Below the pieces are notes generated by a model. It was not told the origin of the DNA and made no database searches. It saw only the letters and a list, made by a program, of their open reading frames with translations. Both the position numbers and the translations under genes were made by a program. DNA of 64,000 nucleotides. It comes from Echinicola pacifica DSM 19836 (GTDB taxonomy: Bacteria; Bacteroidota; Bacteroidia; Cytophagales; Cyclobacteriaceae). Shown here one piece after another: positions 8,974-24,193 of the stretch; within the stretch, counting starts at the first letter, position 1; each line of letters opens with the position of its first letter. The stretch covers positions 659,099-723,098 of the forward strand of contig NZ_KB890739.1 of NCBI RefSeq assembly GCF_000373245.1. Reading direction: 5' to 3'.

Positions 8974-10563
8974 TTAAGGTTTGCTGGTGAAACCTAATTT
9001 TTTCAAGCCTTCTTGGATCTCCGGAGCTCCCATAAATAGGTTCCAGCCTAATCCTGTACGATGATTTTCGATCATTGCCACGATGGGACCTTGGTCGATG
9101 GCGAGGTATCGCTCAGGATAAAAGTCTGCCTCAGGGCTCAAGGCATCATAGAAACCATATCTCCCAAAAACTTTCTCACCATAATTATAATACAGGTTCT
9201 TCAGCACCTTTATGGATTCCTTAGGGGTATAAGGCATGGAGGAAAGCGCCGCAGTAGGAGAGATGACCCCGAGGTCTTCTCCTGGACGGTGGGCATTATA
9301 CCCAGTCACGGTATAGCTGGCGGTAAGGCCCCATAGGTCCTCGCCATAACCTTTATAGTCTTCAGGATTTTCTACACACCATGCGCGGTTGATCAAGGTA
9401 TGATTTTTATTTTCTTCCCAATAATCTGCATATTGGTCGGTGAGCCCTTTAGGGTTTAATCCCAAATAGGAATAATGCGCCCAGAATAGCGGGCCTCCCA
9501 TTTTTTCGGAACCGTTATGCTTTAGTTTTAGCTTATATCCATAAGCTTCCACATCGGTATTGATCCCGCCACTGCGGGCCCAGCCCTTATGATAAGCGGA
9601 GGCGGGGATGGTGTGGGTAGGCGAGGAGGCCGCAAGGATATAGGTGATCAGGCATTCATTATAGCCTTCCAGCGGGAAATTCATTTCCCATTCATGGGTT
9701 GGCGACCAATGCCAATACAGCACATCATGGCCACCTTGCGTGTACCAGTCCCACTCCATGTCTTTCCACAATTGATCAATGCGATTCGCCAATTTCTGAT
9801 CGGCATCGCTTCCGGATTTATAGTATTCTCTTACTGCAAGTAAGCCTTGCATCAGGAAGGCAGATTCCACAAGATCTCCGCCGTTGTCTTTATTACTGAA
9901 GGATTTTCCTTTGCCAGTTTCTCCATACAGCCAGTGAGGCCATACTCCATGGTAGCGATCGGCATTTTCCAGGAAGGTAGTCATCTTTTCGAAGCGCAAA
10001 CGTCCTTGCTCACGGGTAATCCATCCTCGGTCTATCGCGGCGATAATACCAAAGATTCCGAAGCCTGTACCGCCGGTGGTGACCACCGACTTATCATCCT
10101 GAGGATAATTGCCATCGATATGAATCCGCTCAGGGGCAAGCCCCGAAACGGGCTCTGCACCTTCCCAAAAGTACCTGAAAGTGTAATATTGCACCATGTC
10201 AATAAGTTCTTCCTCAGTAAAATCTCTGGTGGATACCTGCACGATGCCCAAATCCTCGGCTTCCGGACTGGCGCCCACCGCTTTTACTTTATACTGTAGC
10301 TGGAGATTTTGGCCAAGATCATTGACGAAATCCATGTACATGGTGTCGGAAAGGCTGGCTCTTTTGGTGAAATCTTTACCATCCATACTCGCCCATATTT
10401 CATAGGAATCTACTCCCTGGATACTGGGCCAGTGCAATTCCACATGTCGGTCATAGCCCTTGGCGGTGATGAGGCTTTCGCCAATTTCCTCTTTGGAAGA
10501 GCAGGCAAAAACCAGGACGGTCATCAGGACTGACAGACCGATTAATAGTGCGTGTTTTTTCAT
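8974..10563 (-). CDS. GH144-type glucanase lipoprotein (putative endo-beta-1,2-glucanase), FN3-like N-terminus
   Basis: A 529-residue protein with a lipoprotein signal (lipobox LVFAC, Cys21), a beta-rich fibronectin III-like domain (about residues 30-112) and a C-terminal alpha-barrel catalytic domain of the glycoamylase/GH144 type (about 115-525). Landmarks of the catalytic domain are YYTFRYFWEGAEPVSG, TTGGTGFGIFGIIA, DNGGDLVESAFLMQGLL, VLYWHWSPTHEWEMN, YNECLITYILAASSPTH and AIDQGPIVAMIENHRTG. The characterised GH144 enzymes (from Chitinophaga) cut beta-1,2-glucan internally. It is the last gene of the PUL, 12 nt after the esterase, and shares all landmarks with the second copy at 13707-15680. 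I have not assigned individual catalytic residues. Confidence 0.85.
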   Translation of the reverse strand: MKKHALLIGLSVLMTVLVFACSSKEEIGESLITAKGYDRHVELHWPSIQGVDSYEIWASMDGKDFTKRASLSDTMYMDFVNDLGQNLQLQYKVKAVGASPEAEDLGIVQVSTRDFTEEELIDMVQYYTFRYFWEGAEPVSGLAPERIHIDGNYPQDDKSVVTTGGTGFGIFGIIAAIDRGWITREQGRLRFEKMTTFLENADRYHGVWPHWLYGETGKGKSFSNKDNGGDLVESAFLMQGLLAVREYYKSGSDADQKLANRIDQLWKDMEWDWYTQGGHDVLYWHWSPTHEWEMNFPLEGYNECLITYILAASSPTHTIPASAYHKGWARSGGINTDVEAYGYKLKLKHNGSEKMGGPLFWAHYSYLGLNPKGLTDQYADYWEENKNHTLINRAWCVENPEDYKGYGEDLWGLTASYTVTGYNAHRPGEDLGVISPTAALSSMPYTPKESIKVLKNLYYNYGEKVFGRYGFYDALSPEADFYPERYLAIDQGPIVAMIENHRTGLGWNLFMGAPEIQEGLKKLGFTSKP

Positions 10564-10575
10564 AAATTCTAGGGT

Positions 10576-11397
10576 TTATTTATGTTTTGAAAATAACCAA
10601 GGCAGAAGTTCTGGTTCTGCAAAGGTGGGATCCCATGCATTATGGTTGGCTTCCGGATAGAGGTCATAGCGTACATCGGCATTCTCCTCAAGTAATGCTT
10701 CATAAACTCTCCTGGATAATATCGGAGGAACCACATCGTCCTTGCCACCGTGTGTCAGCCATACCGAGGTGTTTGGAGCATATTCTTTGGCTAAGGAAAT
10801 ATTTCCTCCGCCACAAATTGCCACCGCTGCAGCGTATTTATCCGGCCATCTGCCTAGCGTCTCCAAGGTGCCAAAGCCCCCCATCGATAGGCCCATGACA
10901 TAGAGCCGATTAGCATCAACACTGAAATCCTGCTGCAGCTGATCGACCAATTCGTTGACCATATCAAGCTGCTCAGAAGGCTGGTCCAGCGATTGGCTGA
11001 AATCAGGATCGCCCTGGCCACGGAGCTCTGCACGAATACTGATGTCTATCCAGTAGGTGTCCTCAGGACACTGGGGAAATACCACGATGGCCGGGAATTC
11101 TTTGCGATTATGCTTGTCAAGAAATAAGCTGGAGCCATGGCTCAGCTGCTTCTCATTGTCACTGCCACGCTCGCCAGCACCATGAAGGAATAATACCAGG
11201 GGATATTCCTTTGAGCTCTTGTAGCCTTTTGGCAATAATAACCTATACCTAAGGGAGTCCCCAGCCTCATTTATATATACCTTATGATCAAAGAGCTTCT
11301 TGTTTTGGGCAAATAAAGTAACCGACCAACTGCTCATTAATACTACCATGAGCCATATTGCGGTTGATTTCGAGCTTCTTTTTATTAATCGTTCCAT
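10576..11397 (-). CDS. Secreted carboxylesterase-like alpha/beta hydrolase of the PUL
   Basis: A 273-residue protein with a signal peptide (hydrophobic stretch about residues 13-30, cleavage likely after LFAQ). The fold is that of the phospholipase/carboxylesterase and PHB depolymerase-like group often seen in PULs: VLFLHGAGERGSDNE (oxyanion loop, near residue 69), VMGLSMGGFGTLE (nucleophile serine near residue 172), a catalytic Asp in GGKDDVVP and His in EANHNAWDP. It probably removes ester substituents from the target glycan or hydrolyses an ester-linked side group. Its start overlaps the end of the GH3 gene by 13 nt, so translation is likely coupled. Confidence 0.82.
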   Translation of the reverse strand: MERLIKRSSKSTAIWLMVVLMSSWSVTLFAQNKKLFDHKVYINEAGDSLRYRLLLPKGYKSSKEYPLVLFLHGAGERGSDNEKQLSHGSSLFLDKHNRKEFPAIVVFPQCPEDTYWIDISIRAELRGQGDPDFSQSLDQPSEQLDMVNELVDQLQQDFSVDANRLYVMGLSMGGFGTLETLGRWPDKYAAAVAICGGGNISLAKEYAPNTSVWLTHGGKDDVVPPILSRRVYEALLEENADVRYDLYPEANHNAWDPTFAEPELLPWLFSKHK

Positions 11398-13682
11398 ACA
11401 ATAATTTCTTTTGAGACTTCCATGGAATTTGTTCCTATCATCACTTCAAAATCTCCCGGTTCAAAAACAAAATCTAAGCTATGATTATAAAATTTGAGGT
11501 CTTCCTGACGAAGCTCAAAGTGTATCTCCTGAGTTTCTCCAGCTTTGATAAATACTTTTTGGAAGCCCTTAAGCTCTTTTACAGGGCGGGTTACGCTGCC
11601 CACCACATCTCTAACATACAATTGGACCACCTCGGCTCCATCATATTTCCCAGTATTCGTAATGCTTACCTTGGCCGTGAGGGTTTGGTCACCAGCCAGC
11701 TGGCTATGGCTAAGCTTTACATCGCCATATTTAAAACTGGTATAACTAAGTCCATATCCAAATGGAAAAAGGGGGCTGTTCGGTATATCGAGGTAATTAG
11801 AGCGGAATTTCTGAAACCATTCTCCTTCGGGGAGGGGTCTGCCAGTGTTTTTATGATTATAGTAGATTGGGATTTGCCCTGTGTTTTGAGGGAAGGTAGC
11901 GGTCAGTTTTCCTGAAGGATTTACCTTACCGAATAGAACATCTGCAATGGCGTCGCCAGCTTCGCTGCCACCAAACCATACATTGAGAATGGCGGGTAAA
12001 TTTTCCGTTTCCCATCGTATTGCTAGTGGTCTTCCTGTAAATAATACCAGGACTATAGGCTTACCTGTTTTGGCCAGCTCCTGGAGCATTTTGCGTTGGT
12101 TTTCTGGAAGCTCAATGGAGCTTCTGCTGGAAGATTCTCCGCTCATTTCAGCAGATTCCCCCATAGCCGCCACGATAATGTCTGATTTTTTGGCCACCTC
12201 CAGCGCTTCAGCAATCAGCTCTTCTTCTGATCTACTATCTCTATAAGTAGGCTTGCCAAAGACACTTACCCGGGATTCTAAAAGTGAATCCCTCACTATA
12301 TTGGCTCCTCGAGCATGCAGAATGGTGACTTCTTCACCTACTGCATTTTTTATTCCTTGCATCAGGGAAATGGATTCTTCAAATCTCCCCGCAACAGACC
12401 AGGTACCGGTCATATTCTCGGCATTGTCCGCCATAGGGCCCACCAAGGCTATCGTTCCCTGCTTCGCTAAGGGAAGGGTTTGCTTTTCGTTTTTTAATAA
12501 TACAAAGGACTGGGCGGCTATTTCTCTGGAAACTTGCCTGTTTTCGGCATTGAAGATCTCATTTTCAGCTCTTTCTATATCGCAGTATCGGTAGGGATCC
12601 TCAAATAGGCCTAGCTTGTATTTGGCTATTAATATTCTTCGGCATGCTTCGTTGATTTCCTCTTCAGTGATTTTCCCCTCTTCCAGAGAAGGTTTTAGAG
12701 TGGTAAGAAAACCCTCTCCCACCATGTCCATGTCCACACCTGCCTGTAGAGAGCGTGCGGATACGGTCTGCAAATCGCCGATCCCATGATCGATCATCTC
12801 ATTGATAGCGGTATAGTCTGTCACCACAAATCCATCAAAGCCCCACTGGTCTCTCAAAACCTCAGTCATCAACCAGCGATTGGCAGAGGCTGGAATTCCC
12901 TCCACCTCATTGAAAGCCGTCATTACAGTGCCCACGCCAGCCTCAATGGCGGCCTTATACGGTGGGAAATATTCATTATACATACGCTGACGGCTCATGT
13001 CCACCGTATTATAATCTCTGCCTGCTTCGCCAGCCCCATAGAGAGCAAAGTGTTTTACGCAAGCCATAAGGGTAGTGCTGAGAGATAAGTCGTCTCCTTG
13101 ATAGCCTCTGACCATAGCCTTGGCTATTTCTGAGCCCAGGAATGGATCTTCACCACTTCCTTCAGATACCCGGCCCCATCTAGGATCTCTGGATATGTCT
13201 GTCATAGGCGAAAAAGTCCAGTTGATGCCGTCTGCACTGGCTTCTTTAGCAGCGATCTGCGCACTTTTTTTGATCAATTCCATATCCCAGCTGGATGCAA
13301 GGCCAAGGGGGATGGGGAAGATCGTTTCGTATCCGTGGATGACATCCATCCCAAAAAGTAAGGGGATTCCTAAACGACTCTCCTCCACTGCCACACGCTG
13401 CACATCGCGGATTTTTGCCACAGTCTTGATATTAAATAGTCCTCCCACTTGCCCTGCCTTTATCTTGTCGGCAATATTGGAGCTGGAAGCCTGTCCCGTG
13501 GTGAAATCTCCCGCGGCAGGAAGGTTTAGCTGCCCAATTTTCTCCTCCAAAGTCATGAGGGCTAGGATAGAATCTGCTTTTTGTCGGAAAAGAGCCTCCT
13601 GCGTGCCGGTTTGCTGCGCAAATGCATTTGCACATCCCAGCAGCATAAAGCTGAAAATTAGGGGTAAATTAAGGTTTTTCAT
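11385..13682 (-). CDS. Glycoside hydrolase family 3 beta-glucosidase
   Basis: A 765-residue protein of normal BglX length with an N-terminal signal (LLGCANAFAQ, either a lipoprotein with Cys17 or a cleaved signal). Domains follow the GH3 order: TIM barrel (about 30-370), alpha/beta sandwich (about 400-610) and C-terminal fibronectin III-like domain (about 680-755). The nucleophile is the aspartate in GFVVTDYTAI (residue 289), and KHFALYGAGEAGRDYN carries the sugar-binding KHF/H motif. SGESSSRSSIELP is in the sandwich domain. In a GH144 context the likely substrate is sophorose and short beta-1,2-glucooligosaccharides, as for the B. thetaiotaomicron GH3 BT_3567, but linkage preference cannot be read from sequence. 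Confidence 0.93.
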   Translation of the reverse strand: MKNLNLPLIFSFMLLGCANAFAQQTGTQEALFRQKADSILALMTLEEKIGQLNLPAAGDFTTGQASSSNIADKIKAGQVGGLFNIKTVAKIRDVQRVAVEESRLGIPLLFGMDVIHGYETIFPIPLGLASSWDMELIKKSAQIAAKEASADGINWTFSPMTDISRDPRWGRVSEGSGEDPFLGSEIAKAMVRGYQGDDLSLSTTLMACVKHFALYGAGEAGRDYNTVDMSRQRMYNEYFPPYKAAIEAGVGTVMTAFNEVEGIPASANRWLMTEVLRDQWGFDGFVVTDYTAINEMIDHGIGDLQTVSARSLQAGVDMDMVGEGFLTTLKPSLEEGKITEEEINEACRRILIAKYKLGLFEDPYRYCDIERAENEIFNAENRQVSREIAAQSFVLLKNEKQTLPLAKQGTIALVGPMADNAENMTGTWSVAGRFEESISLMQGIKNAVGEEVTILHARGANIVRDSLLESRVSVFGKPTYRDSRSEEELIAEALEVAKKSDIIVAAMGESAEMSGESSSRSSIELPENQRKMLQELAKTGKPIVLVLFTGRPLAIRWETENLPAILNVWFGGSEAGDAIADVLFGKVNPSGKLTATFPQNTGQIPIYYNHKNTGRPLPEGEWFQKFRSNYLDIPNSPLFPFGYGLSYTSFKYGDVKLSHSQLAGDQTLTAKVSITNTGKYDGAEVVQLYVRDVVGSVTRPVKELKGFQKVFIKAGETQEIHFELRQEDLKFYNHSLDFVFEPGDFEVMIGTNSMEVSKEIIVWND

Positions 13683-13706: not shown

Positions 13707-15680
13707 TTAATAGCTAAATCCAAGGGCCTCTAAGCCATTTTGGATCTCTGGATCTTTCATAAAGGTGTCCCATAGAAGACCTGTTCGATGATTTTCGATC
13801 ATCAGGAGTATAGGGCCCTGATCTATCGCTAGATAGGAGTCGGCATACCAATTTTCAGAAATATTGAAAGCGTCTTTAAATCCATATTCTCCCCAGCTTC
13901 TTTCTCCCAAATCGTAATAAAAATAACGAAGTGCCTCCATGGATTCCACAGGGGTATAAGGCATGGAGGACAGGGCTGCCGTAGGACTGATCACCCCTAG
14001 ATCATTAGTGGGCGAATGGGCATTATAGCCTTGGTGATTATCACTGGCGGTCAGTCCCCAGGCTTCCTCCCCATATCCCGCAAAACCCTTAGGGTTTTCG
14101 ATACAATAGGCTCTATTGATTTTAGTATGAGCGAGATTTTGCTCCCAATAATTTGCGTACTGATCACTTAGGTTTCTGGGGTCAAGGCCAAGAAAAGAAT
14201 AATGCGCAAAGAATAAGGGGCCACCGCGGTCTGATCCCAGTGGCAGGATCTCCCCATAGAAGGTGCCGCCATTTCTAATGGAGCCATTTTTCGCCCAACC
14301 TTCTTCATAGACCCCCTTGGCGATAGGATAGGTTTCGGATGATGCAGCTAGCACATAGGTGATCAGTGCTTCATTATATCCGCGAACCGGGAGGTTCATT
14401 TCCCAGGCATATTCAGGAGACCAATGCCAATACAGGATATTTCCGCCACCTTTGGTGTACCAGGACCATTCTACCTCTTCCCAAAGTTGCGTGATCTTAT
14501 CGCTCAGCGCAAGTTCAGTAGCGCTGCTCGTATTTAAATAAGCTCTTACGGTGAGCAGGCCTTGGATCAATAAGGCTGTTTCTACCAAATCCCCGCCATT
14601 GTCCTTAGTGCTGAAAGGGATAGTTTTCCCAGTTTCACCATGGATCCAGTGTGGCCAGGCCCCATGGAAGCGGTCGGCTGCGGCTAAGAAGTCCACCATC
14701 TTGACCCAGCGGCTTATCGCCTCAGTTCTGCTGATAAAGCCACGCTCTACCCCTACGATCATCGCCATGGCTCCAAAACCAGAACCACCCGTGGTCACTG
14801 TATTGCCTGAGGTATTTCTCTCTCTCGTCATGCCACTCACTGGGTGCCCAAAAGACCAAAAATACTCGAATGTCTGCCGCTGAACTTTCGTGAGTAGCTC
14901 CTCATCAGAGATAAGTGGGAATTTCGCTATTCCATTGGTTCCTGTGTAAAAGGCGAGGGAATATCCCCCAAAATATTCACTATGCTCGCCCAGAAGCTGC
15001 TCGCTGATCGAAAGTGTATACTGTTTTAATTCCTGCAAAGCAGTGGTAGCACTGATGCTTAAGGTATGAAAGTCCTCGGACCACTGAAATTCCAGAGAGC
15101 CTGCTTGGTCACCGGTGATTTTGACCAGATTTCCTATATCGGATCTGGAATTTTCGCTAATCGGTGCATCAAATCTCAAAGTGGCTTTTAAACTTGGATT
15201 GACCTGATGGTATTTATTGGTGCCTAATTTTATTCCTTCCTCGAAATTGATTTCAGTAAGCAACATCTCCCCGGCCTTCGTGCTAAATATAAGTGTAGCA
15301 CCAGCGAAACCTGCGGTGTTGGTGGAGTGGATGGAAGGTGAAATTTTTAGGGTATAGGTTCGACCCGTTTCTAATCCTCCCTTAGGAGATAGGGTCAATG
15401 TCTTTTTATTGGTCAATAAGTTATAAGAAAAGTCTATGGTGTTACCCTCATTATCGGTAAGGCTGATGGCAGCAGGAAGGGCTTCTTCTGCTATCCCATG
15501 AGAAAAAGTCAAGGTGATAGGGCGATCGGTAGGTGCATTGTCAATGGAGCTGCCGTCGGGATCCAGCGATTGCTCACCGATGGATGCGGTCTCCAGGCTG
15601 AGGTTGGGAAGGTTTTCCTCCTCTTTGGCACAGGAAAAAAAGAAAAATGCAATGCATAGTATAAGAATGGAATATCTCAT
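13707..15680 (-). CDS. GH144-type glucanase lipoprotein with N-terminal Ig-like domains
   Basis: The start at 15680 gives 657 residues beginning MRYSILILCIAFFFFSCAKE, an ideal lipoprotein signal (Cys17); an upstream ATG at 15707 adds nine residues of no value. Residues about 40-140 form an Ig-like domain of the Big_5/SbsA type (ITLTFSHGIAEEALP, LETGRTYTLKISPSI), and a second such domain covers about 140-245. The glycoamylase/GH144 catalytic domain follows (about 255-655), with TFEYFWSFGHPVSGMTRERN, TTGGSGFGAMAMIVG, DNGGDLVETALLIQGLL, ILYWHWSPEYAWEMNLP and AIDQGPILLMIENHRTG. It is a paralogue of the enzyme at 8974-10563 but with longer accessory domains, perhaps to hold the catalytic domain away from the outer membrane. 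Confidence 0.85.
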   Translation of the reverse strand: MRYSILILCIAFFFFSCAKEEENLPNLSLETASIGEQSLDPDGSSIDNAPTDRPITLTFSHGIAEEALPAAISLTDNEGNTIDFSYNLLTNKKTLTLSPKGGLETGRTYTLKISPSIHSTNTAGFAGATLIFSTKAGEMLLTEINFEEGIKLGTNKYHQVNPSLKATLRFDAPISENSRSDIGNLVKITGDQAGSLEFQWSEDFHTLSISATTALQELKQYTLSISEQLLGEHSEYFGGYSLAFYTGTNGIAKFPLISDEELLTKVQRQTFEYFWSFGHPVSGMTRERNTSGNTVTTGGSGFGAMAMIVGVERGFISRTEAISRWVKMVDFLAAADRFHGAWPHWIHGETGKTIPFSTKDNGGDLVETALLIQGLLTVRAYLNTSSATELALSDKITQLWEEVEWSWYTKGGGNILYWHWSPEYAWEMNLPVRGYNEALITYVLAASSETYPIAKGVYEEGWAKNGSIRNGGTFYGEILPLGSDRGGPLFFAHYSFLGLDPRNLSDQYANYWEQNLAHTKINRAYCIENPKGFAGYGEEAWGLTASDNHQGYNAHSPTNDLGVISPTAALSSMPYTPVESMEALRYFYYDLGERSWGEYGFKDAFNISENWYADSYLAIDQGPILLMIENHRTGLLWDTFMKDPEIQNGLEALGFSY

Positions 15681-15743
15681 ATAAATAAGGAGAAAAGGGA
15701 AGCCCAATACTTAGCATGGGCTTCCCAGGGGAATTAAAATATA

Positions 15744-16838
15744 TTACGGCTGTTCGTCATTCATAATCTCTTGTACTTCTGCTTGGCTAAGCGCCTTATC
15801 GAATATTCTCAATTCATCTAAGAAGCTAAGGTCAGACAGGTGGCCCCATCCTGCAAATCGTGGGGCTCCCGAACCGATGGAAAGCAAGTCACAACCCTCC
15901 CAGCTGATGCCTGGATAGGATCCTTGTGAGGCTATATTTCCATTGATATAGAGGGTGCACTGATCAGCGCTAATGGTGAAGGCCAGGTGTATCCATTCTG
16001 TACTAGTAGCAGGATCAATCGAAGCGGCATCTCCGCCATCAAACCAGTTTTCGGAGGTTCCTGTACCCACATTGAGCTTGAAGGTTTGACGGGTGGCGCT
16101 TCCTTCTCTGAACAATCTGAAACCAGCGGTTCTATTGTTCATATTCTGAGGATTGGCTTCGTCTATTGGTCCCATTACGAGAATACCTGCTCTATCAGGT
16201 ACATTATTGATCTTGTACCAAAAAGAAGCAGAGAACTCTGGGTTTGCCAAACTAGCTCCAGGATAGGTCAGGTAAGCACCAGTCGCACCTGCATAGGCAT
16301 TGGTTCCTGCCACACTTTGTCCTGCAAAACCGGGGTTGCCTACCTCATTTGCGGGGCTGATCGTTACCAAATCCACATATTCCCCATCAAATGGAATATA
16401 GAAAATCTCATTTTCATACTCAGATTTGTAAGGAGGGACTTTATCAAAGGTCACCGTAGAAACAGTGGTCTTGTCCGTAATATCATTAGCGCTGATGGTC
16501 ATGGTATGGGGACCATTGGTGATATTGTCCACCGGAACCTGAAGGGCCGCTCTTCTATAATCCTTGAAATCATTATAAGATCCGATTTCCTTGCCATCTA
16601 TGCTGAGGGTAATTGAGGCAATTTCGATATCATCCTGCACCTCGAATTTTGCGGTGATGGCGGTGACATCCTCCGTTACCCGGATCAAAGTACCCTCTAC
16701 AGGGTAGGAGATGGCGATCTGCGGCGCAGTTTCGTCCTCACCTGGAGCTACATAATTGAGCTCATCAATATAACTATCTGTACAAGCAGATGCGGATGCT
16801 AAAAAGGCAACTGCTATTATTTTAGATGTAAAATTCAT
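15744..16838 (-). CDS. LamG-domain lipoprotein, probable surface glycan-binding protein
   Basis: The start at 16838 gives 364 residues with a lipoprotein signal (MNFTSKIIAVAFLASASAC, Cys19); an ATG at 16862 would add eight residues before it. Residues about 40-140 look like an Ig-like/cadherin-like domain (IAISYPVEGTLIRV, GPHTMTISANDITD). Residues about 150-360 are a LamG/concanavalin A-like lectin domain (FSASFWYKINNV, EWIHLAFTISADQCTLYINGN, FLDELRIFDKALSQAEVQEI). It lies directly after susD, where surface glycan-binding proteins of the SusE/F kind are usually encoded, so it probably binds the target glycan at the cell surface. No catalytic motif is visible. Confidence 0.8.
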   Translation of the reverse strand: MNFTSKIIAVAFLASASACTDSYIDELNYVAPGEDETAPQIAISYPVEGTLIRVTEDVTAITAKFEVQDDIEIASITLSIDGKEIGSYNDFKDYRRAALQVPVDNITNGPHTMTISANDITDKTTVSTVTFDKVPPYKSEYENEIFYIPFDGEYVDLVTISPANEVGNPGFAGQSVAGTNAYAGATGAYLTYPGASLANPEFSASFWYKINNVPDRAGILVMGPIDEANPQNMNNRTAGFRLFREGSATRQTFKLNVGTGTSENWFDGGDAASIDPATSTEWIHLAFTISADQCTLYINGNIASQGSYPGISWEGCDLLSIGSGAPRFAGWGHLSDLSFLDELRIFDKALSQAEVQEIMNDEQP

Positions 16839-16868
16839 GTTCTTTGGGTTATGGGATTCCAACTATAC

Positions 16869-18404
16869 TTATTGAGCACTACCTGCAGATAACTGAGGAA
16901 GAATGTCCATCTGAGCTAAAGGGTATGGCAGGTACCGATCGGATGCCTGATAGTTTCTTCCCTCATAGTTTAGTGGAGCGGTCTGATCATAACGCACTAA
17001 ATCATAAAAGCGAATTCCCCACTCCATACCGAACTCGGCATATTTCTCATCCAATACCTGCTCCAAACCTACGCCGCTCAGAGGGCTTAGGCCCACGCGG
17101 TTTCTTACTGTATTGACCGCGGCATCAGCAGACATGGCTGTGCTGGTCGCCCCATTCACCAATGCCTCTGCATGCATTAATAAGATCTCAGCGTATCTGA
17201 TGACGGTGAAATTTTTGTTTTCTCCATAAGAGAAACGTCCCTCCGTAAGCTGGTTACTTGGAAGATATTGCTTGCCACTCAGGAAATTATACCTCGGGTG
17301 ATCATTGAATACATCTCCATCAGGTGAGATATTACTTACCCATGCAGGAAGGCTGGCAAATGCTGGGTCAGTCTTGATTTCGTTGATGCCGGAAGGAGTA
17401 AATAATACCGTGGTGGTCAATCTTTCCATCTCATTTCGCTCAAGCATAAACTTCACATACTTAAGGCTCGGCTCCCAGAATCCCCATCCGCCACCAGCGC
17501 CAGTTACTGCTGGAGTCCAGTTAGAAGGTCCAAAGAAATCCCATAAGTATCTATTGGAAGTTCCTGAAGGATTGCCATAATCTGAATATTGCAATTCTAA
17601 GAGGTTTTCACTGTTTAGCTTTCCTGGGATTTTGAATAGTTCGTAATAATCAGGCTCTAGGATAAATTGTCCATCAGAAATGATCTCACCGGTAGCATCC
17701 GCGACCTGCTGGAAGTTCTTGTTTTCCAGGTTGGCCATGGCCTTCACCGCTAAGGCGGTGTATCGCGTTACTCCACCAGGGACGTCTGTCCTTTGGTTTG
17801 GTCTTACACTAGGGAGATTAGGGATGGCCTCATCCATCTGAGCGGAAATATGGTCCATCACTTCTGCGAAGGTGCTCAGGTCCACATTGTATAGATCACT
17901 GGGCTGGGAGGTTCTTGGGATCAGAATGCTTCCCCATAGTCTTGCCAGTTGAAGCAATTCAAAGGATCGCAATACCTTAACCTCAGCGATATATTGACTG
18001 GAAAGGGCCGCGCTGGCGCCTGCATCCTGATACTTCTGGATCTCCTCCATCGCACCATGCCAATATAAAATATCGGAATATAAATTGAGCCAGGTGGAAT
18101 TGTACATCCAGAAGTTTCTGTCGTACTCGTATAGATCTGTTTTGGTAAGTGGCTCTTGATCTCCACCGGCATCCACATCATCTCCTCGGACACTGATTAG
18201 TGGGAAGGTCTCCCATTGGAGGGAGTTGAATTCTGCGTAGGAGCCATTGAGCAATAGGACCATATTCTGCGATTGAGTATAGTCGGTTTCATCTGCAATG
18301 ACAACATTTTCTAATGGCGTATCAAGCAGGTCGGAGCAGGAGGATAATACCCCTAATCCTAAACTTGCGGCCAATGTGTATCGTGTTATTTTTGATAATT
18401 TCAT
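16869..18404 (-). CDS. SusD/RagB-family outer membrane lipoprotein
   Basis: A 511-residue protein with a lipoprotein signal (LGVLSSCSDLLDT, Cys23), the TPR-like N-terminal SusD domain and the C-terminal RagB/SusD domain (RYAEILLMHAEALVNG near residue 400, and ending with QMDILPQL). SusD proteins are the lid on the SusC porin and bind the oligosaccharide before uptake. It starts 21 nt after the susC stop, the standard pairing, and sets the transport specificity of the PUL together with SusC. Confidence 0.95.
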   Translation of the reverse strand: MKLSKITRYTLAASLGLGVLSSCSDLLDTPLENVVIADETDYTQSQNMVLLLNGSYAEFNSLQWETFPLISVRGDDVDAGGDQEPLTKTDLYEYDRNFWMYNSTWLNLYSDILYWHGAMEEIQKYQDAGASAALSSQYIAEVKVLRSFELLQLARLWGSILIPRTSQPSDLYNVDLSTFAEVMDHISAQMDEAIPNLPSVRPNQRTDVPGGVTRYTALAVKAMANLENKNFQQVADATGEIISDGQFILEPDYYELFKIPGKLNSENLLELQYSDYGNPSGTSNRYLWDFFGPSNWTPAVTGAGGGWGFWEPSLKYVKFMLERNEMERLTTTVLFTPSGINEIKTDPAFASLPAWVSNISPDGDVFNDHPRYNFLSGKQYLPSNQLTEGRFSYGENKNFTVIRYAEILLMHAEALVNGATSTAMSADAAVNTVRNRVGLSPLSGVGLEQVLDEKYAEFGMEWGIRFYDLVRYDQTAPLNYEGRNYQASDRYLPYPLAQMDILPQLSAGSAQ

Positions 18405-18425: not shown

Positions 18426-21400
18426 TTAAAATTTCAGGTTTAGACCTACGGTATATACCGCTGGGATAGGGTAGGTTTGACGGTCAATTCCGTTAGCTAC
18501 TTCCGGGTTAAACCCGTTATAGCTAAACACGGTCAATGGTCGCTCAGCCGTGAAGGTGATCCTTGCCGCTGGCATTTTTTGACCAAACAACTGCTTGTTC
18601 AACAGGGAATAAGCCAGTTGCACGTTTTGGATCCGGAAGTAAGAGCCGTCCTCTACAAAGTAGGTGCTGAAATTTTGGTTCCAGCCTTTTCGTAAACCTG
18701 CCGCGGATGGGTATTTGTCCGAAGTGCCTTCTCCTCTCCATAGGTTATCAGCAAGCTCCGCATCAATATTAGTGTCATTGGTGAAGATGATTTCACCTCG
18801 CTTACGGTTCAGGATTTTATGACCTACTTGCCCTTGGATCAAGGTGGAGAATTCAAAAGCCTTGTATTTGAATCCCAGATTAGCACCATAGGTGAATTCA
18901 GGAAGGAATGAGCCCATTACCACTCGGTCAGCATCATTGATTAGTCCATCACCATTTTGATCTTTAAACTTGAAATCGCCAGGAACCAGACCATTTTCAG
19001 ATATAAATTCATTGGTATAACCACTGTTAGTGATTTCTGCCTCGTTCTGGAAGACCCCTTCTACCTCATATCCAAAGAAGGATTGGAAGGGTTGGCCAAG
19101 GATGGAGCGTTGTCTGAATTCTGCTGAGCCTCCGTCTAGGCTTTCAGGCCCTCCTAAGCTAAGTACTTGGTTTTTTAGCGTGGAGAAATTACCACCTATA
19201 TAGTAGCTAAAGTCTTTGGAGATATCTTTCTGCCAGTTTAGGGAAACTTCCAGCCCTTGATTTCTAATCTGACCTACACTTCGTCTTTCAGTTGCTCTGA
19301 AAACTGGGGGGATAATGCTCACCGCCAAGTTTTTGGTGTCTCGGATAAAGTAATCTGCATCTAGGGAAAGCTGATTATTGAAGAATTTTGCATTAATCCC
19401 AAAGTTCTTCTCAACCGTGGTTTCCCACTGGTCAATTAGGTCATAAGTTGGATTTAGCCTACGGCCAATTACTCTGACATCGTTGATTGCTGTGCTGGTT
19501 TCTTCCAGGGTAGGGACTCCTACGGATGGTGTGATACCATCATTTCCTAGTTGACCCCATGAAGCTCTAAGTTTCAAGAAACCGATAGCAGGTACATCAA
19601 AGAAGTCCTCTTCACTGATCACCCAACCTGCACCAATGGTGGCAAAATTTCCCCACTTCTGCTGGAATTTATTATTGCCATCTCTTCTAAAAGTACCGTA
19701 GAGCAAGTATCTCTCATCATAATTATAAGCAACCCGCCCAAAGAAGGATAGGTAATGCAGCTTACTATTCAAGGTGGATCCATTGCTGTCCCCAATACCA
19801 TTGACATCATAGTTCTCTGCATTAGATAGATACCAATATTGCTGATTATTCCAGGTGGGATCAGGATTGATGCCCGTGCCTGTAGCAAATAATACCTCGC
19901 TATACTCACTTCTATAAGACTGGCCTGCCGTCACTGTTAATAAGTGATCGCCCCAGTTATCTTTATAAGTAAAATAATTATCTACAATCTGATCAAATGC
20001 TGCTGCTGATTGCTTCCTTATTGAGGATGGAAGTTCTGTCACCCCATTGCTGTATCTGAAATTTACATTTCGGTTAGTGATCACATCTAAGCGATAATTA
20101 TAGGCGGTCCGGAAAGATAATTTATTAGGAATAAGGTCTAACTCAGCATGGATATTACCATTCACCTTAGCGACATTATTTCGGTTGTCGTTATAAAGCA
20201 ATGGATAGAAAGGGTTTTGGCTGTTTCTATAGCCCACATTTTGAGCATTGGAAAGTCGCTCAGGGAAGGCGTTGGTATTTTCTGCATCATATACCGGGAT
20301 GATCGGGACGGCAAAATAGGAGTTGAACCAAGCAGCACTTTCTCCTACATACTGTTGAGAAGCACTGAAATTGAAATTTCCACCTACCGTCAACCATTCA
20401 CGTATATCTGTGTCGATTTTAGCCCTGATATTTCCTCTCTTATAATCATTCCTTGCCTCATTTAATAGGCCTTCCTGAGAGAAGAAACTGCCGCCAATGG
20501 AATAACGTGTTTTTTCTGAACCTCCATTAAAGGAAAGGCTATGGTTTTGGATGGCTGCTGGGCTCATCACCTCGCTGTACCAATCAGTGTTTACATCTGG
20601 TAAGCTTGGATCCACACGAGATCTTCCATATCGCTGAATTGCATTTTGGACAAATTGCATATCTGCTGTGGAGCCTGTTTCATTAACATATTGAACAAAC
20701 TGCTGTGCATTCGCCATTCTAAGGACGTTTTGAGGGACTTGTACCCCATAATAGCCATCGTAAACGATCTCTGGAGATTGCTCGTATTTCCCTGACTTGG
20801 TCTCTATCAATACGACACCATTGGAAGCTCTCACCCCGTAAATTGCGGAAGCGGAAGCATCCTTAAGTACAGATATACTTGCAATATCATTGGAGTTCAG
20901 GAAATCGATATTATCAAAAAACATCCCATCTACCACATATAATGGAGCAGCATTGCCTTCAAAGGAACCTACCCCACGAACTCGAACAGTAGGAGAAGCT
21001 CCCGGAGCGCCATTGCTGACAATCTGAACACCAGCGACACGGCCCTGAAGGGATTGCATGGCGTTAGGGGTGGGGGTTTTTACGATTTCATCCGTTTTGA
21101 TGGTCGTGATGGCCGAAGTCAAATCTTTTTCCTTCTGAGTACCATAGCCGACCACTACCACTTCATCGAGAGAACTGATGTCCTCACCTAGAGTAAGGTC
21201 TATTTTACTTCGACCATTTAATGGAACCTCTTGGGTTTCGAAACCGATAAATGAAAAGATTAGGATGGCATCATCTGTGCCGACTTCGAAGGAATAGTTG
21301 CCGTCTAGATCGGTGACTGTACCATTGGAAGTGCCTTTCTCAAGGATGTTGACACCTGGGATGGCTAGACCACTCGGATCTACGACCGTTCCGGAAACAC

Positions 21401-21527
21401 TGTTGGATTGCGCTAATGCCGATGACATCGTGGCAGTCCAGCAAAATAGCATAATCAAAAGAAGCTTGGCCAATTTGGGTTTGCAAGGCTTCTGTGATTC
21501 CTTACTTATGCGTAAAGACATAACCAT
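18426..21527 (-). CDS. SusC/RagA-family TonB-dependent outer membrane transporter
   Basis: A 1033-residue protein: signal peptide (to about residue 39, SSALAQ), carboxypeptidase-D regulatory-like domain (about 43-118, VSGTVVDPSGLAIPGVN), the SusC plug region with EVVVVGYGTQKEKDLTSA and ITTIKTDEIVKTPTPNAM, and a 22-strand beta-barrel ending in an aromatic residue (VGLNLKF). It imports oligosaccharides across the outer membrane with energy from TonB. It has no N-terminal STN secretin domain, so it is not expected to take part in anti-sigma signalling. It is the first gene of the PUL, with 355 nt of non-coding DNA in front. Confidence 0.96.
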   Translation of the reverse strand: MVMSLRISKESQKPCKPKLAKLLLIMLFCWTATMSSALAQSNSVSGTVVDPSGLAIPGVNILEKGTSNGTVTDLDGNYSFEVGTDDAILIFSFIGFETQEVPLNGRSKIDLTLGEDISSLDEVVVVGYGTQKEKDLTSAITTIKTDEIVKTPTPNAMQSLQGRVAGVQIVSNGAPGASPTVRVRGVGSFEGNAAPLYVVDGMFFDNIDFLNSNDIASISVLKDASASAIYGVRASNGVVLIETKSGKYEQSPEIVYDGYYGVQVPQNVLRMANAQQFVQYVNETGSTADMQFVQNAIQRYGRSRVDPSLPDVNTDWYSEVMSPAAIQNHSLSFNGGSEKTRYSIGGSFFSQEGLLNEARNDYKRGNIRAKIDTDIREWLTVGGNFNFSASQQYVGESAAWFNSYFAVPIIPVYDAENTNAFPERLSNAQNVGYRNSQNPFYPLLYNDNRNNVAKVNGNIHAELDLIPNKLSFRTAYNYRLDVITNRNVNFRYSNGVTELPSSIRKQSAAAFDQIVDNYFTYKDNWGDHLLTVTAGQSYRSEYSEVLFATGTGINPDPTWNNQQYWYLSNAENYDVNGIGDSNGSTLNSKLHYLSFFGRVAYNYDERYLLYGTFRRDGNNKFQQKWGNFATIGAGWVISEEDFFDVPAIGFLKLRASWGQLGNDGITPSVGVPTLEETSTAINDVRVIGRRLNPTYDLIDQWETTVEKNFGINAKFFNNQLSLDADYFIRDTKNLAVSIIPPVFRATERRSVGQIRNQGLEVSLNWQKDISKDFSYYIGGNFSTLKNQVLSLGGPESLDGGSAEFRQRSILGQPFQSFFGYEVEGVFQNEAEITNSGYTNEFISENGLVPGDFKFKDQNGDGLINDADRVVMGSFLPEFTYGANLGFKYKAFEFSTLIQGQVGHKILNRKRGEIIFTNDTNIDAELADNLWRGEGTSDKYPSAAGLRKGWNQNFSTYFVEDGSYFRIQNVQLAYSLLNKQLFGQKMPAARITFTAERPLTVFSYNGFNPEVANGIDRQTYPIPAVYTVGLNLKF

Positions 21528-21882
21528 AAGAATAACATTTTGGGTTCTAAAAACATTAAAATTTCAATCGGTTGCAGCTTGCGCTGAATCGTGATGAAAA
21601 GGTATAAGAAAGAAAAGTGCCAAGCTTAATTTTTGTTAAAAATTGGTCTTTAATTTCTCGTTTTTAGAAGCCAATTGATCTTGTTTTTTCCTAGATAAAT
21701 ATCAATACAAAAAGGGTCTATAGCTTTATATGAGGGCTTTTTTGCACCCTTATCCCTGTTAAATACTAAGCTTGTTTTTAGCCTCCATTTTTTGCCGGTT
21801 CAAAGGCATTTTTCTGAAAATTCGGGGGTATTTCTTACAGGCACTATTAACTGTCTGAACCTTGATTTTTATGCTCTCTGAA
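21528..21882. other. PUL promoter region between susC and the 7TM-DISM regulator gene
   Basis: A 355-nt AT-rich gap with no gene. It must carry the susC promoter, but no TAnnTTTG element is obvious on the minus strand, which would fit activator-dependent transcription. AAGGGT near 21713 and ACCCTT near 21747 can pair across a 30-nt loop. Confidence 0.45.
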
Positions 21883-23775
21883 TTATTGCCTGTTTGCCAA
21901 TTTTTCATCTGCTAGAATCAAAATTTGCTCCCAGTTGGGGTTCGCATTTCCTAGAGCTTCTATATTGGCACGTGTTTTCTTTTTGAAATTCCACACGGTA
22001 TTCTTTCCTGTCTCCAGCATCTCCGCTAATTCCTCTATTGTCTTTGGTTCATGAGCAGAGATCTGCTCGTAAGCAATATAGAAAGCCTTCTCCAAAGGGA
22101 ATTTTACCCGATGAAAAATGGTGCCGGCAGTTACTGAGTCGATATGCCCACATTTGCTACATCGTTTGGTAAATAGCTTGGGCCCGGGCGCACTTTTGGT
22201 GTTTTCACACTGTCTGCAATGAAAACCTTTGCCCCATTTGCGCTCTTCCAAATACCTCATGCAAGAGGAGCTGTCAGGGAATATTCCTCTAAATTCTTCG
22301 TAAGAAAGTAGCTTATTGCTCAATCGGGCCTGGAAAGAGGCTTTTATATTTGACTTTAACTTCCAGTTATCCTTGTCCAGCAGGGAATTGATCCGTTTTA
22401 TCTCTTCATCTTTTGCCGTCAGCTGCTTATTGTATTCTTCCAGAAGTTCATTTTTATGCGCCAACTGCGAGGTTCGTTCCTTCACCTTGGACTCAAGCTC
22501 AAGGGTTACCTTTTCTTTAAGCGTGAAGTTAGTTTCCATTTGCCTAATCGCCCTTTTCATTGCCCGATCCCGATTATCCTTGAGAATGCGGATGCGGTCC
22601 CCAAGTGCAAAGGTCAGCAGCAGCATTTCCAACAGGAAGGCAAGGTGCAAACTATAATAGACTAATGTATAATGTGGAATCACCGAGGTGTTGGCAAGGA
22701 CTTTTATCACCACCCCGAGGAAAAGCAAGCCATAGGCAATCACAAAGAATCGGGCTACCTTATAGCCTCGGGTCCAGATATAGATGCTTCCCGTAAAAAT
22801 CAGAAAGAAGGGTAATACATCGTAATATTTGATTTCAAATAATTTATAATTCCCTAATAAACCTGCCGCAAATATCATTGATTTCAGGATCAGGGTGGTC
22901 AGTAAGGCGATGTGTATTTTTGGAGATCGATATTTGGTGTTAAGGAATTTTATGGAGAATAATACCGCCCATAGCACGATAAAATAACTGAATAGCCCAT
23001 TCGCAATTTGATTCCAATCTGGATGGCTGGGCCATAAGTATTGGAAAGCAATGCCATCCACACACATGGCGTAAATCCCCACACTGAGTAAATAGAAGGT
23101 GTAATAGAGGTATTTGATTTCTCGGATTACCGTATAGACGAGGAGGTTGTATAAGCCGATGATGGCGATCATACCATAGAAGATGCCGTAAGCAAAGTAC
23201 TCGTTCATGGCATAATTCACAAATCTATTTACTGATCGAATTGCTATTCTGATATCGGCCTTCTGGGATGATCTTACCTTGATATAATAGTTGTCAATAC
23301 CCGCATTGGTATTGCCTAAGATCAATTCAAAATTTTTGTGGAGAAATTGCCTGGACCTGAAGGGAAGGGCATCCCCCATGGAGAGTTTAGTATATCTTCC
23401 CTCTTCATCCGGGATATATACCTCCAGGTAGTCAATGGTCTGATCGTAAAATTCCATCATCCATTTTTTAGCACTTTCAGGTGTTTTTTCCAGAGATATT
23501 TTTACCCAGTAAGTATGGTTAATATCAAATTTGTTCTTATTGGCTCCAGGATGGATTTTAAAATTATCCTGGAATTTTGGTGCGGCAATCTTATCAAAGC
23601 CTAGTAGGTTTGTACTATCTTCATAAAACTCGAGCTGAGAGATGCCAAAAATTCGCTCATCCAAATTATCGTCAATCTTTAGGGTGGAGGTTCCTGAGAT
23701 CCTTTGCGCAAAACCCTGAGGGCTGTGCCAGAGCGCCAGCGAAAAGATTAGAAATAGATAAATGCGGATTTTCAT
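21883..23775 (-). CDS. 7TM-DISM membrane receptor with C-terminal transposase-type zinc ribbon and HTH
   Basis: A 630-residue protein. It has a signal peptide (about 1-24), a periplasmic beta-sandwich of 7TMR-DISMED2 type (about 30-185), seven membrane helices (about 193-392), a coiled coil (about 395-470) and then a cytoplasmic end unlike the usual kinase or cyclase output. This end has a four-cysteine zinc ribbon, HCRQC (C520, C523) and RCSKC (C539, C542), followed by SVTAGTIFHRVKFPLEKAF and a helix-turn-helix (about 577-603, IEELAEMLETGKNTVWNFKKKTR). That order is the N-terminal DNA-binding part of IS1595/ISXO2-type transposases; the DDE nuclease domain is absent. DISM ectodomains often bind carbohydrate. 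The gene lies just upstream of susC on the same strand, so I infer a one-component, membrane-bound regulator of the PUL. Confidence 0.8.
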   Translation of the reverse strand: MKIRIYLFLIFSLALWHSPQGFAQRISGTSTLKIDDNLDERIFGISQLEFYEDSTNLLGFDKIAAPKFQDNFKIHPGANKNKFDINHTYWVKISLEKTPESAKKWMMEFYDQTIDYLEVYIPDEEGRYTKLSMGDALPFRSRQFLHKNFELILGNTNAGIDNYYIKVRSSQKADIRIAIRSVNRFVNYAMNEYFAYGIFYGMIAIIGLYNLLVYTVIREIKYLYYTFYLLSVGIYAMCVDGIAFQYLWPSHPDWNQIANGLFSYFIVLWAVLFSIKFLNTKYRSPKIHIALLTTLILKSMIFAAGLLGNYKLFEIKYYDVLPFFLIFTGSIYIWTRGYKVARFFVIAYGLLFLGVVIKVLANTSVIPHYTLVYYSLHLAFLLEMLLLTFALGDRIRILKDNRDRAMKRAIRQMETNFTLKEKVTLELESKVKERTSQLAHKNELLEEYNKQLTAKDEEIKRINSLLDKDNWKLKSNIKASFQARLSNKLLSYEEFRGIFPDSSSCMRYLEERKWGKGFHCRQCENTKSAPGPKLFTKRCSKCGHIDSVTAGTIFHRVKFPLEKAFYIAYEQISAHEPKTIEELAEMLETGKNTVWNFKKKTRANIEALGNANPNWEQILILADEKLANRQ

Positions 23776-24193
23776 TGATTGCTTTCAGGTTATTATATAG
23801 GCTCTTCCATGCATTGCTATTGCTATGAGCAAACAAGGTCATGAGGGTTGAAATCCTATTTTCTTAATAAATTCAAAATAGCCAATTGCCAGCTAAATTA
23901 ACCGATCCAGGCCAATTATGTTCCTTTTTGTTCCATATAAAATAATGAGAGCCATAAGCATCTCAGGACTTGGAGGTGGCTTTTGGTTGGTGGGATCGCC
24001 AAACGGTGTTTTGCTACTGATTCAAAGTGCAGGTATCCATCCGATTTATGTGTCATTCGGATGGGTTAATTCTTTGTTTTTCTGAGGGATTTGGAACTTA
24101 TAGTGCTTGTCTCATATCCATGTGGGGACTATCAGAAGAGATCCGCAGATGGGTTCTGTGAGGAATAGTGTAATTCAGCCTAATGGCCTGTAC
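23776..24193. other. Intergenic region between ftsE and the receptor gene
   Basis: About 420 nt without a convincing frame, RNA or repeat. No terminator for the gene on the other side of it (ftsE, minus strand, ending 24194) is visible, and no clear promoter for the receptor gene. Confidence 0.45.

Follow-up and report, generated by a model that had tools for sequence, protein, structure and literature searches.

A membrane receptor ending in an IS1595-type zinc ribbon and HTH, and conserved paired repeats upstream of susC, at a PUL of Echinicola pacifica

The window analyzed here is a 64,000-nucleotide stretch of the Echinicola pacifica DSM 19836 genome (contig NZ_KB890739.1, positions 659,099 to 723,098). 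It carries a receptor-regulator gene, to which we give the working name DISMZ, and downstream of it, in the same direction, a PUL whose genes run susC, susD, a LamG protein, a PF10091 enzyme, a GH3 enzyme, an esterase-like hydrolase and another PF10091 enzyme (Table 1). PF10091 is what we take to be GH144, a family that includes a beta-1,2-glucanase (PMC12102758), and from these GH144-type enzymes we infer that the substrate is probably beta-1,2-glucan. On the far side of the receptor lies a 235-aa ORF that by eye resembles an ABC ATPase. Most other Echinicola loci have a gene of ~297-327 aa between the receptor and this ABC-like gene, and at that place in the window (23776-24193) there is no ORF of 90 aa or more.

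Table 1. Features of the receptor gene, the susC gap and the PUL (positions in the window)
Feature	Position	Strand	Basis
Receptor-regulator gene, 630 aa, working name DISMZ	21883..23775	minus	ORF
7TMR-DISMED2, periplasmic, residues 47-179	23239..23637	minus	Pfam 5e-28
7TMR-DISM_7TM, residues 192-394	22594..23202	minus	Pfam 2.5e-43 and AlphaFold model
Long helix, probable coiled coil, residues 400-487	22315..22578	minus	AlphaFold model, helix 375-487
IS1595-type zinc ribbon, residues 501-544	22144..22275	minus	Pfam Zn_ribbon_IS1595, conserved cysteines, model
HTH region, residues 557-606	21958..22107	minus	IS1595 transposase model positions 2-52
Distal operator-like repeat	21751..21770	plus (opposite to susC)	EM motif and pair scan
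Proximal operator-like repeat, oriented as the distal one and 64 bp from it	21687..21706	plus	EM motif and pair scan
-7-like promoter box of susC, TACCTTTTC	21596..21604	minus	Alignment of gaps
susC, 1033 aa, without N-terminal extension, CarbopepD from residue 44	18426..21527	minus	Domain scan
susD	16869..18404	minus	Domain scan
LamG and Big_7 protein, probable surface lipoprotein (lipoprotein by eye)	15744..16862	minus	Domain scan
PF10091 (GH144-type) enzyme with Big_5 domain	13707..15707	minus	Domain scan
GH3 enzyme	11385..13682	minus	Domain scan
Alpha/beta-hydrolase, esterase-like	10576..11397	minus	Domain scan
Second PF10091 (GH144-type) enzyme	8974..10563	minus	Domain scan

The DISMED2 and DISM_7TM domains both score above their curated Pfam cut-offs, placing the protein among the 7TMR-DISM receptors. 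The same scan of the protein found no histidine kinase, receiver or AraC domain, so that it does not qualify as a hybrid two-component system, and no DUF6377. A full-length AlphaFold model (mean pLDDT 83, and 84.5 for the head alone) shows, in order, seven long membrane helices (read by eye), a long helix and then the ribbon-HTH head. Searched with Foldseek against the PDB, the full model found human WLS first (8.4e-5), followed by the periplasmic domain of RetS (3jyb; E 1.4e-4, TMt 0.66), with CBM61 weaker and ranked lower (3.3e-3). Model confidence is low at residues 461-490, between the long helix and the head (block means 51-59), and this stretch is a possible cut site if the head were released by a protease upon signaling to act as a free DNA-binding fragment. 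Against this alternative, which we regard as unlikely, residues L427, V431, R434, T435 and L473 of the long helix are invariant in an alignment of 31 sequences, as fits a helix that relays a signal. The original prediction, made from the sequence alone, had described a DISM ectodomain, seven helices, a coiled coil, four cysteines and an HTH without a DDE domain, all of which held (Pfam, NCBIfam, AlphaFold and alignment), the coiled coil as a probable one; its signal peptide rests on reading the sequence, no predictor having been used.

The head was compared with the N-terminal end of IS1595 transposases. In the protein scan, residues 501-544 matched Zn_ribbon_IS1595 (PF12760) at 1.1e-4, their 22.5 bits falling short of the 25.4 cut-off; a search of the genome gave these residues 24.2 bits, or 25.8, above the cut-off, when frame neighbors were included. 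Residues 557-606 matched positions 2-52 of the NCBIfam IS1595 transposase model at 1.7e-3 and 18.3 bits (cut-off 75). Each of these matches is weak by itself, but three observations lift them above chance: the zinc ribbon is matched by 31/31 aligned members of the receptor family at E ≤0.01 (best 2.2e-10), the cysteines C520, C523, C539 and C542 are invariant across these 31 sequences, and transposases of the same genus (302-aa frame) share 36% identity with receptor residues 494-611 (2e-18). One such transposase, L081, contains both the ribbon and the DDE domain (PF12762), the latter also found in transposase L085, while a Pfam scan of the receptor gave no match to PF12762. The receptor head is thus homologous to the N-terminal end of IS1595 transposases and lacks the DDE domain. 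No match to DDE_Tnp_IS1595 at 1e-10 was found in the E. pacifica genome itself, and the head alone had no significant structural match, with nothing better than E 0.38 when searched with Foldseek against the PDB.

In a tree of head domains, for which 95 receptor domains were thinned to 56 and transposase domains below 44 bits as well as rows L086 and L272 were left out, a single branch (100/99) splits the 56 receptor domains from 19 transposase domains. Homology and this single clade support the original prediction of a domesticated transposase module, DNA binding by which is inferred. The direction of capture, from transposase to receptor, is only inferred because the tree is unrooted.

The receptor is not confined to this strain. 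Orthologues with 71-74% identity are present in 10/10 other Echinicola genomes, and a paralogue with 28-30% identity in all 11 Echinicola genomes, including that of the window. At the level of the order, at least 130/390 sampled genomes have receptor matches at E ≤1e-110; those down to 512 bits are full length. Full-length matches above 500 bits were found in at least 10/295 genomes of a class sample, where matches that end before the head reach at most 288 bits, and in at least 9/296 genomes of a phylum sample. These counts are lower bounds since only three or four candidates were scored per genome. In the window's genome, the paralogue is a second receptor of the same architecture and 28% identity (G000:C20:167805-169601; L005, L036), located beside SASA/esterase and GH43 genes. 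In L154 (G658), a second family receptor lies ~10 kb from the PUL-linked one and is divergent from another susC/susD pair. The family receptor genes of L192 and L193 (G130, G194) follow genes of 1670 and 1800 aa, with no SusC/SusD found near. In a second group of the family, f13, the receptor gene of L063 (6267-8819) is preceded by an 851-aa DUF5686 protein with CarbopepD, and L179, L197 and L198 have a gene of similar length at the same place.

We then counted SusC or SusD genes around family members, using distinct loci from which repeat proteins and duplicate fetches (L064, L065, L077, L151) had been removed. Close orthologues have SusC or SusD within one, two or three genes in 35, 36 and 37 of 40 loci, the exceptions at three genes being L074, L156 and L253, and group f13 in 7, 27 and 28 of 28. 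The link is weaker in other, more distant members (8, 10 and 12 of 36 loci) and is not seen within three genes of the Echinicola paralogue (0/11). Homologues scattered without a link to PULs would have refuted the original prediction, and this outcome was not met for the close orthologues or for group f13. As controls, we hand-picked 20 loci among DISM matches that end before the head (three of them with only two genes on one side); these had SusC/SusD within three genes in 0/20 and at four genes in 1/20. Their receptors end in a SpoIIE phosphatase (10), a histidine-kinase ATPase (7), a glycosyltransferase (1), LytTR (1) or no domain that we could see (1), and the label "kinase-type" was rejected for this control set, as the histidine-kinase ATPase was matched in only 7/20. 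Two DISM receptors with uncommon ends were recorded as such: one ending in LytTR, another one-component form, without SusC/SusD within three genes (L219:8823-10481, G034), and one with a glycosyltransferase-like C-terminal domain (L204:5603-8113, G026).

Linkage persists where the genes are in divergent orientation (L058, L079) and where the neighboring susC is non-orthologous, at 33-34% identity (L057, L163). The outer flanks of linked loci differ between genera in the rows inspected, whose flank genes are unannotated, and no common second regulator gene is therefore obvious. Much of the linkage may possibly be one inherited arrangement of related genera, and the loci are not independent. As for the paralogue, its divergent neighbors in L040 are GH10, GH43, GH115 and esterase genes; the other ten loci have adjacent genes of similar lengths (a length comparison, these loci not being fully scanned), and GH3 lies behind it in 9/11. 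Because such genes are of the xylan type, the paralogue probably serves xylan. Scans of ten neighbor genes of the other, more distant members returned two GH18 proteins, a GH97, a GH67 and a pectate-lyase-like one, but DUF2339, citrate synthase, Uma2, a von Willebrand protein and a protein with only a secretion tail as well.

The gap between the receptor and susC had been described in the original prediction as lacking a standard promoter box, a claim that failed. The Bacteroidota -7 element is TAnnTTTG, and the gap contains TACCTTTTC at 21596-21604, which we take to resemble it and which is exact in 12 of 33 compared gaps when these are aligned on the box. Upstream of this box, the window carries two direct repeats (Table 1). 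An EM search allowing both strands placed the best TATCACGCTTTAATAACA-like site on the strand opposite to susC in 32/32 receptor-susC gaps, with a log-likelihood (width 20) of 170.2 for real data and 68.7-70.4 in three shuffles. The controls were mononucleotide shuffles in 25-base blocks with 10-15 starts vs 40-50 for the real data, which somewhat favors the latter, and the refined matrix was built from sites of one strand only. L163, L154 and the four duplicate fetches were left out of training. A plain core, GATACTAAA, taken from the Echinicola alignment, was dropped in favor of the EM motif, being present in few other genera.

A second site of at least 9 bits occurs in 24/32 gaps, and in 23 of these 24 it lies 64-66 bp from the first. 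Scanning 151 loci (2.71 Mb, with some overlap) for pairs 63-66 bp apart with a summed score of at least 20 returned 35 pairs, all of them (35/35) intergenic, in the same relative orientation and upstream of the receptor-linked operon or, for L252, upstream of susC. They come from 25 training loci, the four duplicates and six untrained loci (L049, L153, L163, L177, L181, L252); in seven of the 32 gaps used for training, no pair reaches this score (L057, L068, L069, L071, L078, L158, L194). L074, L079 and L156 showed no strong pair within the fetched stretch, and L058 only one of 18.9. Among the untrained loci, L049 (G003) has another susC/susD pair, of separate origin (24% identity), between regulator and PUL, and the repeats are found at the PUL's own susC, 69% identical to that of the window. 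In L153 and L163, they precede a relative of the window's esterase gene that is now first in the locus (63% and 42%). L252 and L253 belong to one genome, in which the repeats lie upstream of susC (53%) on contig 49 and the regulator on contig 1. L177 and L181 have repeats at more distant receptors, beside GH3 and GH18 genes.

We also held out whole genera, with the 63-66 spacing still drawn from all data. A matrix made without Echinicola placed the pair top of the whole locus in 8/10 Echinicola loci and in L049, with second rank for L053 and for the window over its 64 kb; single sites were on the expected strand in only 6/10, so that the pair performed better. With Cyclobacterium held out, the pair was top in 3/6 loci (L069, L070, L072) and not in L068, L071 or L078. 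When the 16 loci from outside Echinicola and Cyclobacterium were held out, the motif was not recovered and EM returned a promoter-like element. Among 13 control spacing bands, four hold pairs of at least 23, eight in total, and all eight lie inside the same receptor-susC gaps. The conserved repeats show constraint in the gap and do not by themselves identify a binder.

Other groups have conserved elements of their own. Group f13 has elements that are partly A/T runs, and two of them lie 75-78 bp apart in 21/28 loci; for the paralogue, two TTTAAGCG-like elements are 116-123 bp apart in 10/11 loci and 143 in L038. Both are weaker claims because they were counted with hand-chosen patterns. The matrix from the first clade scores at most 11.7 on the Echinicola paralogue gaps, and a pooled EM over the three clades returned mainly the f13 element, the resemblance of their sites being apparent only by eye. 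A single shared binding code is therefore unproven.

These data bear on two alternatives. The receptor might be hitch-hiking, an old neighbor of the PUL without a regulatory role, with the repeats belonging to something else; in favor of this, much of the linkage is one arrangement common to related genera. However, the L252/L253 genome retains the repeats although they are unlinked from the receptor, those of L049 are at susC and distant from the receptor, sites occur with non-orthologous susC genes in L057 and L163, and group f13 and the Echinicola paralogue adjoin other enzymes. We hold hitch-hiking to be very unlikely. Alternatively, the protein could be a repressor relieved by glycan, as whether it activates or represses cannot be read from its anatomy alone. 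This is improbable in our view, since both repeats are located upstream of the -7-like box, at 83 to 166 bp, where activators are more usual, and SusR, the closest functional parallel, is an activator (PMC3878776).

The same PUL also occurs without the receptor beside it. Searching 30 genomes of the taxonomic family in which our receptor searches gave no full-length match with the window's SusC, we found four that hold a close orthologue (69-73%) in a longer frame, and two further long SusC orthologues (70%) come from genomes that have the receptor at another place. Absence of the receptor from three of the first four genomes derives from a search that scored three candidates per genome. In these six copies without an adjacent receptor (L246-L251), SusC is 1120-1125 aa and CarbopepD starts at 133-139, as compared with residue 44 in the window. 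Weak STN matches (1e-4 to 7e-4, below cut-off) were found in three of them (L248, L249, L251). ECF sigma and FecR genes lie directly upstream in 5/6; L248 has neither, despite its long SusC. In the usual ECF scheme, the signal passes through SusC to an anti-sigma factor (PMC3878776). Receptor-adjacent SusCs are 967-1071 aa, except for one in two pieces, and the window, where SusC is unextended, does not fit ECF sigma/anti-sigma control. The paired repeat is absent from 6/6 of these copies; single sites of 11-13 bits on the other strand were seen near the ECF-type susC of L246, L247 and L249. From these six loci, the same PUL is apparently under two unrelated control systems.

This bears on a third alternative, in which the repeats are read by a different DNA-binding protein that the ribbon-HTH head merely recruits. 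The conserved repeats do not name their binder, and zinc ribbons can bind proteins, which leaves room for such a role. On the other side, all pairs but one in the 151 loci adjoin a member of this receptor family, and the exception is in a genome that holds one; the pair is missing from the six copies of the locus without an adjacent receptor, and the head is homologous to a transposase end. We judge recruitment unlikely.

Our preferred reading is that the receptor is a membrane-bound one-component glycan regulator that activates the susC-led operon through the paired repeats. What is established are the domains, the linkage to the PUL, the conservation of the paired repeats and the fact that they co-occur with the receptor family; DNA binding, ligand, dimerization and activation are inferred, without binding or expression data, and we consider the reading as a whole likely. 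In this model, the periplasmic jelly-roll domain would sense an oligosaccharide, most likely a beta-1,2-gluco-oligosaccharide freed by the GH144 and GH3 enzymes of the locus, and the seven helices and then the long helix would carry the signal to the cytoplasmic zinc ribbon-HTH head. The heads of a dimer or higher oligomer would bind the two direct repeats upstream of the promoter, which are 64 bp or ~six helical turns apart, and once bound would activate the susC promoter, turning on the susC-led operon. The original prediction of a one-component glycan sensor for the adjacent susC operon is supported to this extent. A regulatory role also gains independent support from the paired repeats, the unlinked L252/L253 genome and the ECF-sigma/FecR swap, and is probable, with binding, ligand and direction of regulation still inferred.

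We lean, if only slightly, toward a bolder reading: the family would be a further class of PUL regulator, widespread in the order, that arose by a single ancient capture of the DNA-reading end of an IS1595 transposase by a seven-helix glycan receptor and then radiated over glycans (beta-1,2-glucan, xylan, possibly chitin and others), with operators made of two direct repeats at a distance of six or seven turns, and being exchangeable with ECF-sigma control of the same operon. Three types of regulator are named for Bacteroides PULs, SusR-like, hybrid two-component and ECF sigma/anti-sigma (PMC3878776), and the family, if this reading is true, would add one more. It would also show a route from a transposase end to the head of a membrane receptor and provide a rule for regulon prediction in a poorly studied order, namely an operator of two repeats spaced by 64 bp. 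Related genomes in which one PUL is apparently under two different regulators offer a natural experiment.

Among known systems, the SusR-like regulators share with this family a membrane protein that combines a periplasmic sensor and a cytoplasmic DNA-binding end in one polypeptide, and an association with susC-led loci. Their predicted operators are direct repeats with centers 67 or 77 bp apart (PMC3878776), compared with 63-66 bp for the receptor family and 75-78 bp for the elements of group f13; the family thus meets the criterion of a two-direct-repeat operator six or seven turns apart. Two SusR-like proteins near GH13/GH97 genes, picked by context and domain rather than by name, carry DUF6377 (PF19904) and no DISM bundle, DISMED2 or zinc ribbon (Pfam), and their scores against our head profile A1 were low, at 5.2 and 4.6 bits (E 0.015 and 0.023, with fewer than 20 proteins searched). 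As the logic is shared while head profile and domains differ, we infer that the receptor family works like SusR and is not SusR. RetS/LadS-type 7TMR-DISM receptors have the same sensor and seven-helix module; the output of the receptor family is the ribbon-HTH head, unlike the ends of the 20 control receptors. The LytTR-type receptor of L219 has DISMED2 and DISM_7TM followed by another DNA-binding domain, LytTR, and no SusC/SusD within three genes. The ChiS DNA-binding domain, again a different one, occurs in proteobacterial architectures that include 7TMR-DISM (PMC8092284), with no zinc ribbon or PUL link in the relevant passage of that paper. Given these two precedents, a DNA-binding end on a DISM receptor is not in itself new. 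IS1595 transposases have the ribbon and HTH in the same order, whereas the receptor has no DDE domain, carries them fused behind a receptor and forms its own clade. Finally, the ECF sigma/FecR/extended SusC systems adjoin the same PUL in five relatives, without a fusion of receptor and DNA-binding end. No paper joining DISM receptors with PULs, or the IS1595 zinc ribbon with a receptor, appeared in the open-access literature searched; an earlier mention is not excluded. What is likely to be new is the transposase-type head, its link to PULs, an operator with 64-bp spacing and the exchange with control by ECF sigma.
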